Source: Rhodocaloribacter litoris
GTDB lineage: Bacteria; Bacteroidota; Rhodothermia; Rhodothermales; ISCAR-4553
NCBI RefSeq assembly: GCF_011682235.2
Contig: NZ_CP076718.1
Span: 3,768,400-3,832,399, forward strand
Length of the DNA stretch: 64,000 bases
Direction of reading: 5' to 3'
Position 1 is the stretch's first letter; each line of letters opens with the position of its first letter. Below are positions 8,431 to 15,724 of the stretch, in pieces. The position numbers and the translations under genes were made by a program. The notes below the pieces were generated by a model. The model did no database searches, was not told the origin of the DNA, and saw only the letters and a program-made list of their open reading frames with translations.

Positions 8431-9465
8431 ATGAAACTTACCCCCCTCGACATCCGGAAACAGGATTTTACGCGCGGCTTTCGGGGCTACGACGCCGACG
8501 AGGTGCAGACTTTTCTGCGGATGGTGGCGGATCAGTGGCAGGAGTTGCTGGACGAAAAGGCACGCCTGGAAGAGCGCCTGCGCGAGCAGGAAGCCAAGCT
8601 GCAACATTATCTGAAGGTGGAGGAGGCGCTCCAGCAGGCACTCGCGACGGCCCGGGAAAGCACCCGCCAGGCCATCGAGAACGCCGAACGCAAGGCCGAG
8701 ATGATTCTGCAGGAAGCGGAGGCCCGGGCGAAGGAGATCAAGCGCGACGCCGAGGAGCAGCGGCACCGGCTCAAGCACGAGGCGGCCCAGATCGCCGGGC
8801 GTCGCAAGGAGATCGTGGCGCGGCTGCGGGCGTTTCTGCTCTCCGAGATGGAGTTGCTGGCCCACTTCGAGGGGGACGACCCCGTGGGGTTCATCAAGCT
8901 GCTGCCCGGGGAGGAACGCTCCGAGACGGCCCGTTACCTGGCGGCCCGGGCCGATGCCCCGTCGCCGGCGGCGAAGGAGTCCGGGACCCCGGCATCCGGA
9001 GAGCCGGCCGCGCCCGCGGCCGGCGAGGACGAGGAGGAGCTTCTCCGGGAACTGGCCGACGAGATCGCGGCCCTGGACCCCGGTGCGGTGACCTCCGGCC
9101 CGGAAGCGGACGTGGCTCCGGAGCCGGAAGCGGACATGGCCCCGGAGCCGGAGGAGGAACCCGCGCCGGAACCGGTGGAAGACCACCCGCAGCCCCGGTG
9201 GCAGGCCCTGCAAGACGAAGCACCGCAGGAGGACGAAGCCTCTGAGGCCGGCGCGGCACCGGACACCGAGCGGCCCGCCGAGACCGGCGGCGAGCGCCCC
9301 GGCTGGCGGGTCAACTCGCTCATCCGACCCGGACCGGAAAGCGGGACCGAACCGGCCGGGAGCGAGGCGGCGAAGAAACCGGATCCCCCTGCCGGCAAGG
9401 AGGACGAGAGCATCCCCTCCGACGAGATCGCCAAGATTCGCCGCATCCTCGACGACCTCGACTGA
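8431..9465 (+). CDS. DivIVA domain-containing coiled-coil protein
   Basis: The N-terminus (residues 1-35, [23 protein letters not shown]) is a clear DivIVA lipid-binding domain, with the F-x-R-G-F-R-G-Y-D pattern. It is followed by a long, highly charged heptad-type coiled coil up to about residue 130. The last ~200 residues are low-complexity, rich in Glu, Pro and Ala, with an imperfect repeat of the type PEADxAPEPE, and end in a short helix ([13 protein letters not shown]). DivIVA proteins sense membrane curvature at poles and septa in Gram-positives. Roles in Bacteroidota are poorly defined. The ATG at 8431 starts exactly at the domain. The gene lies between yggS and a nucleoside phosphorylase gene. 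Confidence 0.85.
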
Positions 9466-10333: not shown

Positions 10334-10376
10334 GCTGCCCGGCAGCCGCGTATCGTGCCACCAGCCTGGCGTGATC

Positions 10377-11096
10377 ATGCACGAAGACGAAATCTGGGAC
10401 GAAGAGCGCTGGGAGGCGTTTCTGCGCGAGAACGACCGCCGTGTCAATCGCTTCATGGACCTGCTGTTCAACTTCCTCACGGAGCACCCCCTGCCCGAGG
10501 AAGGGGACGAGGCCGGCCGGCGCTTCTGGGAAAGCCAGCTCCGCGACTTCCTCGAAGGACAAGGCTTCTATCCGGAAGACCACGGGTATGGCTTCTTCTT
10601 CGATCTCTTCGATACCGAGGACGAAGCAGACGAGGAGGAGGCCGGCGTCGGGTGGTTCGGCCTGGAAGACGAGGAGGCCTTCGACGACGAGGCGCTCTTC
10701 GAGGACGCGTTGCAGAGCTTCCGGGAACTGCCGGTCTACCAGCAGGCCTTCCGGCTGGCCACCGAGGTGCTCGAATGGGCCAATGCCCTGCCCGGCGACG
10801 TCAAGGACAGCACGCTGGTTCAGTTCTGCACGCACGTCACCCAGATCCCGGCGAACATCGCCAAGGGGCACGGCATCGGCTACGAACGCGACATGATCGG
10901 CGGCAACATCGCCTGTGCCAAGCGAGGGCTGGCGGCCGCCAATGCCGCGCTGGGCCTGCTCCGTGAGATGAAGGCGGCCCCCTACATGCCCCCCGACGTG
11001 TACCGGCGCCTCTACGAACAGGCCTTCGAGGTGCGCAACGAACTGGGCCTGTACGTGCAGGATCTCCGCCGTCGCTTCGACCTGGGCATCGACTGA
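10377..11096 (+). CDS. Acidic N-terminal domain fused to S23-like four-helix bundle protein
   Basis: A 239-residue protein in two parts. Residues 1 to about 112 are strongly acidic and helical (runs such as DTEDEADEEEAG and EDEEAFDDEALFED), with no family I recognise. From about residue 115 (FRELPVYQQAFRLATEVLEW) to the end is a four-helix bundle of the 23S rRNA intervening-sequence (S23/IVP) type. The diagnostic stretch there is FCTHVTQIPANIAKGHGIGY and the family-typical end is LGLYVQDLRRRF. Stand-alone members are normally about 120 residues, so the acidic half is an addition. The ATG at 10377 was chosen over an in-frame GTG six bases earlier. Function is unknown: bundle proteins of this type are thought to bind nucleic acid, and the acidic half could bind a basic partner. 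Confidence 0.75.
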   Translation: MHEDEIWDEERWEAFLRENDRRVNRFMDLLFNFLTEHPLPEEGDEAGRRFWESQLRDFLEGQGFYPEDHGYGFFFDLFDTEDEADEEEAGVGWFGLEDEEAFDDEALFEDALQSFRELPVYQQAFRLATEVLEWANALPGDVKDSTLVQFCTHVTQIPANIAKGHGIGYERDMIGGNIACAKRGLAAANAALGLLREMKAAPYMPPDVYRRLYEQAFEVRNELGLYVQDLRRRFDLGID

Positions 11097-11268: not shown

Positions 11269-14200
11269 ATGACCTTTCCGGAAGTCAAACGCTTCGATCA
11301 TCCGGCGCTCGAACGCGAGATCCTTCGGTGGTGGAAGGAGCACGACATTTTCAAGAAGAGCATCGAGAAGCCCGCCGGGGCCCCCACGTTCTCTTTCTAT
11401 GAAGGCCCGCCGACCGCCAACGGGCAGCCCGGCATTCACCACGTCATGGCGCGGACGATCAAGGACACCTTCTGCCGGTTCAAAACCATGAAGGGGTTCC
11501 GGGTCGAGCGCAAGGCGGGATGGGACACGCACGGCCTGCCGGTCGAGATCGAGGTGGAGAAGGAGCTGGGGCTGGAAGGGCGGCATCAGGTCGAGTCCTA
11601 CGGCATCGAGAAGTACAACGCGGCCTGCCGGGAGAGCGTCCTCCGGTACAAGGCGCAGTGGGATGAACTGACCACGCGCATGGGCTACTGGGTGGATCTC
11701 GAACATCCCTACATCACCTTCGAGACGAAGTACATCGAGACCGTCTGGTGGTTGATCAAGCAGATCCACGAGAAGGGGCTGCTCTACAAGGGATACAAGA
11801 TCCAGTGGTACAGCCCGGGTTCGGGGACGGTCCTCTCCTCGCACGAGGTGAGCCTGGGATACCGGGAGGTGCAGGATCCGAGCGTCTACGTGCGTTTCCG
11901 GGCGACGGACGCACCGGAGACCTTCTTCCTGGCCTGGACCACCACGCCGTGGACCCTCATCTCGAATGCGGCGCTGGCCGTCGGGCCGGAGATCGACTAC
12001 GTGAAGGTGCGCCGGGAGGACCCCCACACCGGCACCGAGTACCTTATCCTGGCCCGCGATCGCCTCGAGGTGCTCCGCGAGGATTACGAGGTCGTGGCGA
12101 CGTTCAAGGGACGGGAACTCGTGGGGAAGACGTACGAACCGCTCTATCCCTACTTCACGCGGGAGGTGCCGCCCGGCCGCGCCTGGCGTGTGGTGCCGGC
12201 GGACTATGTCTCCACCGAGGACGGCACGGGCATCGTCCACACCGCCCCGGCCTTCGGTGCGGAAGACTTCGAGACGGCGAAGCGGGAAGGACTGCCGCTG
12301 CTCAACCCCATCGACGCGGAGGGCCGCTTCACCGACCAGGCCCGCCTGGTGGCCGGCCTCTGGTTCAAGGACGCCGATCGGGTCATCATCCGGGACCTGC
12401 GCGAGCGCGGCCTGCTCTACCGGCACGAGACCTACCTGCACAACTATCCCCACGACTGGCGGCGGGGCACGCCGCTGATGAGCTACCCCGTCGAAGGGTG
12501 GTTCATCCGCACGACCGCCGTCAAAGACCGGCTCATCGCGCTGAACGAGACGATCAACTGGCAGCCGGAGAGCATCGGCCGGGGGCGCTTCGGCGAATGG
12601 CTCCGCAACAACGTCGACTGGGCGCTCAGCCGCCGCCGCTACTGGGGGACCCCGCTGCCCGTCTGGGAGTCCGACGCACCAGGGTCCGACTACGTCGAGG
12701 TCATCGGCTCCATTGCCGAGCTGCGCCGGAAATGCGGGGACCAGTTGCCCGAACGGGACGACGAGATCGACCTGCACCGCCCCTTCGTGGACCGGCTCAC
12801 CTGGCCCGCTCCCGACGGCGGCACCATGCGCCGCGTCCCCGACCTCATCGACGTCTGGTTCGACTCCGGCGCCATGCCCTTCGCCCAGTGGCATTATCCC
12901 TTCGAAAACCGGGAAGCTTTTCGGCGCAGCTTCCCCGCCGACTTCATCGCCGAGGGCGTCGATCAGACGCGCGGGTGGTTCTACACGCTCCATGCCATCG
13001 CCACGATCGTCATGGACAGCGTGGCCTACAAGAACTGCGTCGTCAACGGGCTGGTGCTCGACGAGAAGGGCGAGAAAATGTCCAAGAGCCGGGGCAACGC
13101 CGTCAACCCCTTCGAGGTCATCGCCTCGCACGGCGCCGACCTCGTCCGGTGGTACATGATGAGCAACACCCCGCCGTGGGAAGACCTCAAGTTCTCCGAG
13201 CAGGGCATCCGCGAGACGCTGCGCAAGTTCTTCGGCACGCTCGGCAACGTGTACAACTTCTTCGCCACCTACGCGAACATCGACGGGTTCCGCTATGCCG
13301 AGCCGCGTGTGGCCGTGGCCGACCGGGCCGAGCTCGACCGCTGGATCATGAGCCGGCTGAACACGACCGTCGCCGAGGTGGATGCGGCGCTGGAAGCCTA
13401 TCACCCGACGAAGGCGGCCCGGGCCATCGAGCGCTTCGTGGACGAGCTCTCGAACTGGTACATCCGGCGGTCGCGGCGGCGTTTCTGGGCCAAGGCGGCC
13501 GCCCGGCAGGACGCCGAGGACAAGCTGGCCGCCTACCAGACCGTCTACGAATGCCTGATCGCCGTGGCGAAGCTGATGAGCCCCATCGCTCCCTTCTTCG
13601 GCGAATGGATCTACCGGGCCCTCAACGAGACCACCGGGCGGGAGGCCGCCGTCTCCGTTCACCTGGCCGACTTTCCCGTGGTTGAGCCGGAAGCCGTCGA
13701 TGCGGCGCTCGAGCACCGGATGGGGCTGGCCCGGACGATCTCGTCCGTCGTCCTCGCACTCCGCAACACGGCGGGCATCAACGTGCGGCAGCCCCTGCCC
13801 CGCATTCTGGTCGTCACCGGGGTGGGGGTCGAGCGGGAGGCCGTCGAGCAGGTGGAAGCCATCATCCGGGACGAGGTGAACGTGAAGGCCGTCGAGTACG
13901 TCGCCGGCACCAGCGGGGTGGTCCGGCGCTCGGCCAAGCCGAACTTCAAGGTGCTGGGGCGGCGGCTCGGCAAGCTCATGAAGCCGGTCAACGAGGCCGT
14001 ACGGGCCTTAAGTGACGACGCCATTGAACGATACCTGACGGACGGACGGCTGACCCTGCACGTAGACGGCCAGGAGGTGGCGCTCGGCCCGGGCGATCTC
14101 GAGGTCGTCAGCGAAGGCATCGAAGGCTGGCTTGTGGGGCAGGAGGGCGGCGTCACCGTCGCGCTCGACACCACGATCACCGACGAACTGCGCGCCGAAG

Positions 14201-14457
14201 GCCTGGCCCGTGAGACGGTCAACCGCATCCAGAACCTGCGCAAACAGGCCAACTTTGAGGTGACCGACCGCATTGCCGTCCGTTTCCGGGCCACCCCGCG
14301 CCTGCGCGAGGCCGTCCGCCGGCATGCCGAATGGATCCGGAACGAGACGCTCGCTCTTGAGTTGGAAGAAGCCACACATCCGGAAGGTGACCTCGTCGAA
14401 CGCTTCGAGATCGATGCCGAAGAGGTGACCGTGGGCGTACGCCGGATCGAGACGTGA
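11269..14457 (+). CDS. ileS: Isoleucine--tRNA ligase (GxHH signature variant)
   Basis: Class I aminoacyl-tRNA synthetase that charges tRNA-Ile; 1062 residues from the ATG at 11269 (GGAGG at 11253-11257). The first signature is in GPPTANGQPGIHHVMARTIK: residues 55-58 read Gly-Ile-His-His, so positions 1 and 3 of the usual HxGH are swapped. The second signature, GEKMSKSRGN, is at about 603-607. The editing (CP1) domain holds the TTTPWTLISNAALAVGP segment. The Ile-specific GWDTHGLPVE and DVWFDSGAMPFAQWHYPF are present. The C-terminal region is the long IleRS2/eukaryote-like type with no zinc-finger cysteine cluster. The GxHH form has been described in mupirocin hyper-resistant IleRS2 enzymes. 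Confidence 0.96.
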   Translation: MTFPEVKRFDHPALEREILRWWKEHDIFKKSIEKPAGAPTFSFYEGPPTANGQPGIHHVMARTIKDTFCRFKTMKGFRVERKAGWDTHGLPVEIEVEKELGLEGRHQVESYGIEKYNAACRESVLRYKAQWDELTTRMGYWVDLEHPYITFETKYIETVWWLIKQIHEKGLLYKGYKIQWYSPGSGTVLSSHEVSLGYREVQDPSVYVRFRATDAPETFFLAWTTTPWTLISNAALAVGPEIDYVKVRREDPHTGTEYLILARDRLEVLREDYEVVATFKGRELVGKTYEPLYPYFTREVPPGRAWRVVPADYVSTEDGTGIVHTAPAFGAEDFETAKREGLPLLNPIDAEGRFTDQARLVAGLWFKDADRVIIRDLRERGLLYRHETYLHNYPHDWRRGTPLMSYPVEGWFIRTTAVKDRLIALNETINWQPESIGRGRFGEWLRNNVDWALSRRRYWGTPLPVWESDAPGSDYVEVIGSIAELRRKCGDQLPERDDEIDLHRPFVDRLTWPAPDGGTMRRVPDLIDVWFDSGAMPFAQWHYPFENREAFRRSFPADFIAEGVDQTRGWFYTLHAIATIVMDSVAYKNCVVNGLVLDEKGEKMSKSRGNAVNPFEVIASHGADLVRWYMMSNTPPWEDLKFSEQGIRETLRKFFGTLGNVYNFFATYANIDGFRYAEPRVAVADRAELDRWIMSRLNTTVAEVDAALEAYHPTKAARAIERFVDELSNWYIRRSRRRFWAKAAARQDAEDKLAAYQTVYECLIAVAKLMSPIAPFFGEWIYRALNETTGREAAVSVHLADFPVVEPEAVDAALEHRMGLARTISSVVLALRNTAGINVRQPLPRILVVTGVGVEREAVEQVEAIIRDEVNVKAVEYVAGTSGVVRRSAKPNFKVLGRRLGKLMKPVNEAVRALSDDAIERYLTDGRLTLHVDGQEVALGPGDLEVVSEGIEGWLVGQEGGVTVALDTTITDELRAEGLARETVNRIQNLRKQANFEVTDRIAVRFRATPRLREAVRRHAEWIRNETLALELEEATHPEGDLVERFEIDAEEVTVGVRRIET

Positions 14458-14529: not shown

Positions 14530-14958
14530 ATGGCTGAGAGAAAGATGGAGTCTCCCGCTGGGGCGGGCACGGGAAAGGAGAAGCGCATCACCCCGTTCAC
14601 GGACGAGGAGCTCGAGTACTTCCGGCAGTTGATCTTGAAGAAGCGGCAGGCGGCCCTGGAAGACATCGAGCGGATGCGCGCCCAGCTCGCCGATGCACGC
14701 GAGCAGGCCGAGAACGATACGGCCTACAGCTTCCACATGGCCGATGCGGGCACCGACGCCATGGAGCGCGAAAAGCTTTACCTGATGATCGGGCGCCAGC
14801 AGAAATACATCGGCTACCTGGATCGGGCGCTCGAACGGATCGAGAACAAGACGTACGGCATCTGTAAGGTCACCGGAAAGCCCATTTCGAAGGAACGCCT
14901 GGAGGCCGTACCGCATACGGAGATCTCCATTGCGGCGAAGCTCAAACAGAAGCGCTGA
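14530..14958 (+). CDS. TraR/DksA-family protein with depleted zinc finger
   Basis: A 142-residue DksA/TraR relative. The N-terminal part (EEKRI... through about residue 100) is a two-helix coiled coil of the sort that enters the RNA polymerase secondary channel, containing AxNDTAYSFHMADAGTDAMEREK, in which the D-x-A-D-x-G-T-D tip is preserved. The C-terminal part keeps the family frame (YGICKVTGKPISKERLEAVPHT) but only one of the four zinc cysteines. This cysteine-poor form is usual in Bacteroidota. The ATG at 14530 fits better than the further upstream start. It precedes lspA by 82 bases, a pairing seen in several phyla. Confidence 0.85.
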   Translation: MAERKMESPAGAGTGKEKRITPFTDEELEYFRQLILKKRQAALEDIERMRAQLADAREQAENDTAYSFHMADAGTDAMEREKLYLMIGRQQKYIGYLDRALERIENKTYGICKVTGKPISKERLEAVPHTEISIAAKLKQKR

Positions 14959-15040: not shown

Positions 15041-15724
15041 ATGCGCGCACTCTGGATCACGCTGGCGGTTGTGCTGGTCGATCAGGCGACGAAGATCGTC
15101 GTGCTCAACACCATGATGCGGCACGAGTCGATCCCGATCCTGGGGGACTGGCTCAAGCTGACCTTTACCGAAAACCCGGGGATGGCTTTCGGGATCACGT
15201 TCGGCCCACCGGTGCTGGTGACGGTCTTCTCCATCGTGGCCACGGCGCTGATCATCTTCTACATGGTGAAGATCGGGCGCGCATACTTTCCCTACCGGGC
15301 CAGCCTGGCCCTGGTGCTTGGCGGGGCCATCGGCAACATCATCGACCGGGTCTTCTACGGCGTGATCCTCGGCTACGACGGCCTGTTTCTGGGCCGGGTG
15401 GTCGACTTCATCCACGTCAACCTCTGGCGCGGCTACATCCCGGAGGCCATTCCGCTGGTCGGGGGCAGCTACATTGCCCTCTTTCCCATCTGGAACGTGG
15501 CGGATATGGCCATCGTGCTCGGGGTCGTCGGGATCCTTGTGTTTCAGCGAACCTTTCACGAGCGCCTGGCGGCGTTGCAGGGGCAGGCGGAGATGCCGCC
15601 CCGGGACGAGGAGGAGGCGGCTGCCCTCGCGATGCGGGCGGTGACGCGGAACGGGATGGCACCGGCGGCGACGGAAGACCCGGCGGTGGAGGAGGAACGC
15701 GACGGGAAGGCGCCTACCAGCTGA
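15041..15724 (+). CDS. lspA: Lipoprotein signal peptidase (signal peptidase II)
   Basis: Aspartic membrane protease that cleaves prolipoproteins before the lipidated cysteine. There are four predicted membrane segments in the first ~180 residues. Conserved blocks include the N-terminal VDQATKIVV, the TENPGMAFGI motif, GGAIGNIIDRVFYG with the first catalytic Asp, VVDFIHV, and FPIWNVADMAIVLG with the second catalytic Asp. The last ~45 residues are a charged extension (PPRDEEEAAALAMRAV onward) not needed for the fold. Its 3' end overlaps that of the convergent TonB-dependent receptor gene by 11 bases. Confidence 0.95.
   Translation: MRALWITLAVVLVDQATKIVVLNTMMRHESIPILGDWLKLTFTENPGMAFGITFGPPVLVTVFSIVATALIIFYMVKIGRAYFPYRASLALVLGGAIGNIIDRVFYGVILGYDGLFLGRVVDFIHVNLWRGYIPEAIPLVGGSYIALFPIWNVADMAIVLGVVGILVFQRTFHERLAALQGQAEMPPRDEEEAAALAMRAVTRNGMAPAATEDPAVEEERDGKAPTS

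Follow-up and report, generated by a model that had tools for sequence, protein, structure and literature searches.

A 2023 study (PMC10485003) described the exchange of the HxGH signature motif to GxHH in type 2 isoleucyl-tRNA synthetases (IleRS2) and linked it to mupirocin hyper-resistance. There, GxHH or AxHH occurred in IleRS2 but was absent from IleRS1. A displaced helix tip in IleRS2 allows the third His of the motif to replace the first without moving the adenine; the same swap in an IleRS1 abolished activity (PMC10485003). The IleRS2 of Deinococcus radiodurans (DrIleRS2), which has ALHH, is inhibited by mupirocin with a Ki of 6.6 mM, and changing the motif to HVGH lowered the Ki 823-fold to 8.1 µM. 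Conversely, with GVHH introduced, the Ki of TtIleRS2 rose from 0.20 to 35 µM and that of the Priestia megaterium IleRS2 (PmIleRS2) from 1.08 to 460 µM; modelling traced resistance to the third His, which clashes with mupirocin (PMC10485003). A literature search for IleRS2 in Bacteroidota and for Rhodothermus with mupirocin returned nothing relevant.

The window, by which we mean the whole stretch of 64,000 nucleotides analysed here, contains an ileS gene (11269-14457, plus strand) that starts with the ATG at 11269 and encodes a protein of 1062 amino acids. The curated equivalog model TIGR00392 assigned the protein to the isoleucyl-tRNA synthetases with 972.9 bits (cut-off 621.4), Pfam detected the domains tRNA-synt_1, Anticodon_1 and, at the C-terminus, DUF5915, and the best relatives in the PDB were IleRS2. 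Direct reading of 11431-11442 (plus strand, GGC ATT CAC CAC) gave Gly55-Ile56-His57-His58; the motif thus has the Gly (or Ala) in the first and the His in the third position that define the GxHH group. KMSKS was read from the translation at residues 603-607 (13075-13089, plus strand). In an alignment of 41 sequences G55, H57 and H58 were invariant, and so was K603-K606. In a phmmer search of the PDB, GIHH aligned with HVGH of wild-type PmIleRS2 (8c8u, 8c8v) and with GVHH of 8c8w, an engineered mutant and the top-scoring chain. A true HxGH elsewhere in the protein was ruled out, since the frame offers no candidate motif besides GIHH, which aligns on HxGH. ValRS, LeuRS and MetRS of the same genome retain the canonical HMGH, HVGH and HIGH, respectively. 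The LeuRS (genome coordinates about 1405801-1408416, locus L008) combines its normal HVGH with KMGKS in place of KMSKS.

The sequence of the window protein was closer to IleRS2 than to IleRS1: P. megaterium IleRS2 chains matched with 918-933 bits over residues 14-1030, the IleRS1 chains of P. megaterium and Staphylococcus aureus with 369-377 bits in an alignment that stopped near residue 817. The same holds for the fold. An AlphaFold2 model, calculated from the 41 sequences gathered in this analysis, had a mean pLDDT of 90.7, and its predicted helix 56-74 begins at residue 56, where the tip of helix alpha 1 is expected. The best structural matches were PmIleRS2 structures, including the GVHH mutant 8c8w, with Z-scores of 44-46; matches at most 1 Z unit apart were treated as ties and the closest PmIleRS2 state was left unassigned. 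Yeast and Thermus enzymes followed, and the IleRS1 of S. aureus and P. megaterium were lower (Z 32-36). From the higher sequence scores and the higher Z-scores with PmIleRS2 than with IleRS1, together with the type 2 C-terminal domain, the window enzyme is IleRS2. Alignment columns, connected via the E. coli IleRS1 row, put Ala61 at the place of Asn70 of PmIleRS1, a mupirocin contact that follows the motif, and Leu595 at the place of Phe586, which stacks mupirocin; the IleRS1-specific mupirocin contacts thus appear to be absent from the window enzyme. The first-pass annotation had described Gly-Ile-His-His at residues 55-58, a normal KMSKS and an IleRS2 with an exchanged signature motif, all of which agrees with the reading of the DNA, the translation and the sequence and fold comparisons. 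The alignment it had named as a check on whether HxGH lies elsewhere came out on GIHH, and its statement that GxHH had been reported in active, mupirocin hyper-resistant IleRS2 matches PMC10485003 exactly.

How widespread is the motif? GxHH was found at 78 of the 79 loci read, the window copy included, and the lone exception lies on a frameshifted contig. When 394 phylum genomes were scanned with DNA patterns in PTANG context, 156 matched with GxHH and none with HxGH. A broadened pattern (P-T/S-ANG), which also admits PSANG, matched 72 of 109 genomes. The ileS gene was read in 19 genomes, 15 of them from the non-matchers of the P-T/S-ANG pattern and the others from the larger set, and all 19 had PTVNG followed by GxHH. 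A relaxed GxHH pattern matched 109/109 phylum genomes and 63/63 genera, and its reversed-pattern control gave no match. GxHH is, therefore, the normal state of Bacteroidota in the sample, and the 78 loci and 109 genomes rule out chance or a sequencing error as the source of GIHH. Two variants of the second signature motif were seen along the way. KMSKR replaces KMSKS in IleRS of the Cytophagia/Bacteroidia type with PSANG context and tracks that subclade (L058, L063, L065-L068, L070, L072, L073, L075, L077, L082-L084, L088, L138), and two actinobacterial GxHH enzymes (L133, L136) have KMSKH.

In the genome (4.50 Mb, 99.9% complete) a profile search detected one ileS above the cut-off, the weaker matches being ValRS, LeuRS and MetRS; a second, canonical ileS was found neither by this search nor with an IleRS1-type DNA pattern. 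As the sole ileS of a genome of this completeness, the gene must encode the housekeeping enzyme, and we infer from its single-copy status that the enzyme is active. Judged by its sequence, it has every sequence feature on which the published mechanism depends. By analogy, with the helix tip displaced as in IleRS2 generally, the His in third position would do the catalytic work of the first His and leave the adenine in place, and the enzyme would charge tRNA-Ile normally. Mupirocin would be excluded because its nonanoic moiety and its ring would collide with that same His. We predict an active, mupirocin hyper-resistant enzyme whose Ki greatly exceeds the values of HxGH IleRS2 and lies between high micromolar and millimolar; a millimolar Ki is not assured, since the effect of GxHH varies with the background and the GVHH mutant of TtIleRS2 reached only 35 µM.

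Directly 3' of ileS lie a gene for a dksA/traR-type zinc finger protein (14530-14958, plus strand; PF01258) and lspA for signal peptidase II (15041-15724, plus strand; PF01252), an order, ileS-dksA-lspA, that matches Parabacteroides and is the Bacteroidota gene order. The gene just 5' of ileS (10371-11096, plus strand) encodes a product with an acidic N-terminal extension; its C-terminal half weakly resembles the 23S rRNA intervening sequence protein, scoring under the Pfam gathering threshold. Farther upstream, beside a gene for a purine nucleoside phosphorylase, 8431-9465 (plus strand) encodes a DivIVA-domain protein whose long C-terminal tail is acidic and rich in proline. The closest relatives of the window protein are from Rhodothermus-like and other Bacteroidota MAGs (72-74% identity), and in the tree it falls among Rhodothermia/Rhodothermales rows. 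Since GxHH is present in 109/109 phylum genomes and the gene order is that of Bacteroidota, the motif is native and was inherited vertically; nothing points to acquisition. The first-pass annotation had called it "probably native rather than acquired", which phylum-wide distribution, tree and gene order bear out. It had also stated that Bacteroidota IleRS "often" have the GIHH form; the motif is common to the phylum as claimed, but "often" is too weak for a sample in which every genome has GxHH. Taken together, we are highly confident that the window encodes the sole housekeeping IleRS2 of a bacterium of the Rhodothermia type (Bacteroidota sensu lato), with a natural GxHH motif and predicted tolerance to mupirocin, and that this state is old, vertically inherited and phylum-wide.

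Why the motif arose is a separate matter. GxHH may have been kept for reasons unrelated to mupirocin, through drift in IleRS2 or because of another inhibitor, with tolerance as a by-product, a reading that we consider quite possible without favouring it. It concerns the origin of the motif rather than the function of the enzyme and is compatible with the explanation given above. Fixation throughout the phylum is more in keeping with a state frozen long ago than with ongoing selection by a single product of Pseudomonas, and the swap is cheap in IleRS2 backgrounds (PMC10485003); the authors of that study prefer selection by the antibiotic, however, and our data fit mupirocin-like selection and drift alike. 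A horizontally acquired, MupA-like resistance ileS, beside or in place of a native sensitive enzyme, is extremely improbable: resistance plasmids do carry IleRS2 and the MupA and MupB profiles matched the window protein over long alignments (866 and 864 bits), but these scores are far below the cut-off of 1900, the MupA motif is the canonical HTGH, MupA groups in the tree with Bacillota IleRS2 outside the Bacteroidota clade, and the single genomic copy, the phylum-wide motif and the standard gene order all speak against it.

Outside the phylum, GxHH IleRS2 with 55-65% identity to the window protein were found in nine gammaproteobacterial genomes (Salinisphaera, Oceanococcus and MAGs; L020, L021, L022, L026, L029, L039, L043, L052, L061), where they are the only ileS above the cut-off. 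In the tree these rows are nested in the Rhodothermia rows; their joint branch has a support of 94 and the fork above it is drawn open. The order in E. coli is ribF-ileS-lspA. In three of these gammaproteobacteria (L140, L142, L143) ribF adjoins lspA without ileS between them, followed by ispH in L142 and L143, and the GxHH ileS sits elsewhere, for example in S. japonica beside sufE and a methionine-synthase-like gene. It appears that in Salinisphaera, Oceanococcus and related gammaproteobacteria IleRS1 was replaced by a transferred, Rhodothermia-like IleRS2 of the hyper-resistant type; several of the genomes are MAGs, in which contamination is possible, but that of S. japonica YTM-1 belongs to a named strain. 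A literature search on ileS transfer with Salinisphaera gave nothing relevant. We somewhat favour a history in which GxHH became fixed no later than the root of the phylum, making indifference to mupirocin ancestral, and a later transfer from a Rhodothermia-like donor to bacteria of the Salinisphaera/Oceanococcus type displaced a sensitive IleRS1. This apparent replacement is worth more than the finding in the window.

A resistance-linked change in a highly conserved enzyme motif is thus confirmed as the normal state of a phylum, and the window enzyme is one more case of a published phenomenon, ordinary for its phylum. Because GxHH is normal across the phylum, it is best taken as a mark of intrinsic tolerance and not of an acquired resistance gene; searches for resistance genes could give housekeeping genes of this kind a wrong label when they match IleRS2. 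MupA of Staphylococcus shares the IleRS2 type and about 41% identity with the window enzyme but is plasmid-borne and differs in its canonical motif. PmIleRS2 (8c8u, 8c8v) has the same full-length fold at about 40-42% identity, and its GVHH mutant has the same motif form; the wild type, however, has HVGH and occurs together with an IleRS1 in the same organism (PMC10485003), whereas GIHH is natural in the window genome, which lacks IleRS1. The nearest counterparts are the GxHH/AxHH IleRS2 of Streptomyces griseus and D. radiodurans (PMC10485003), which are likewise housekeeping enzymes of type 2 with exchanged first and third motif positions and a standard KMSKS; the window enzyme differs from them in phylum and sequence, and its inhibition by mupirocin is predicted by analogy with theirs.
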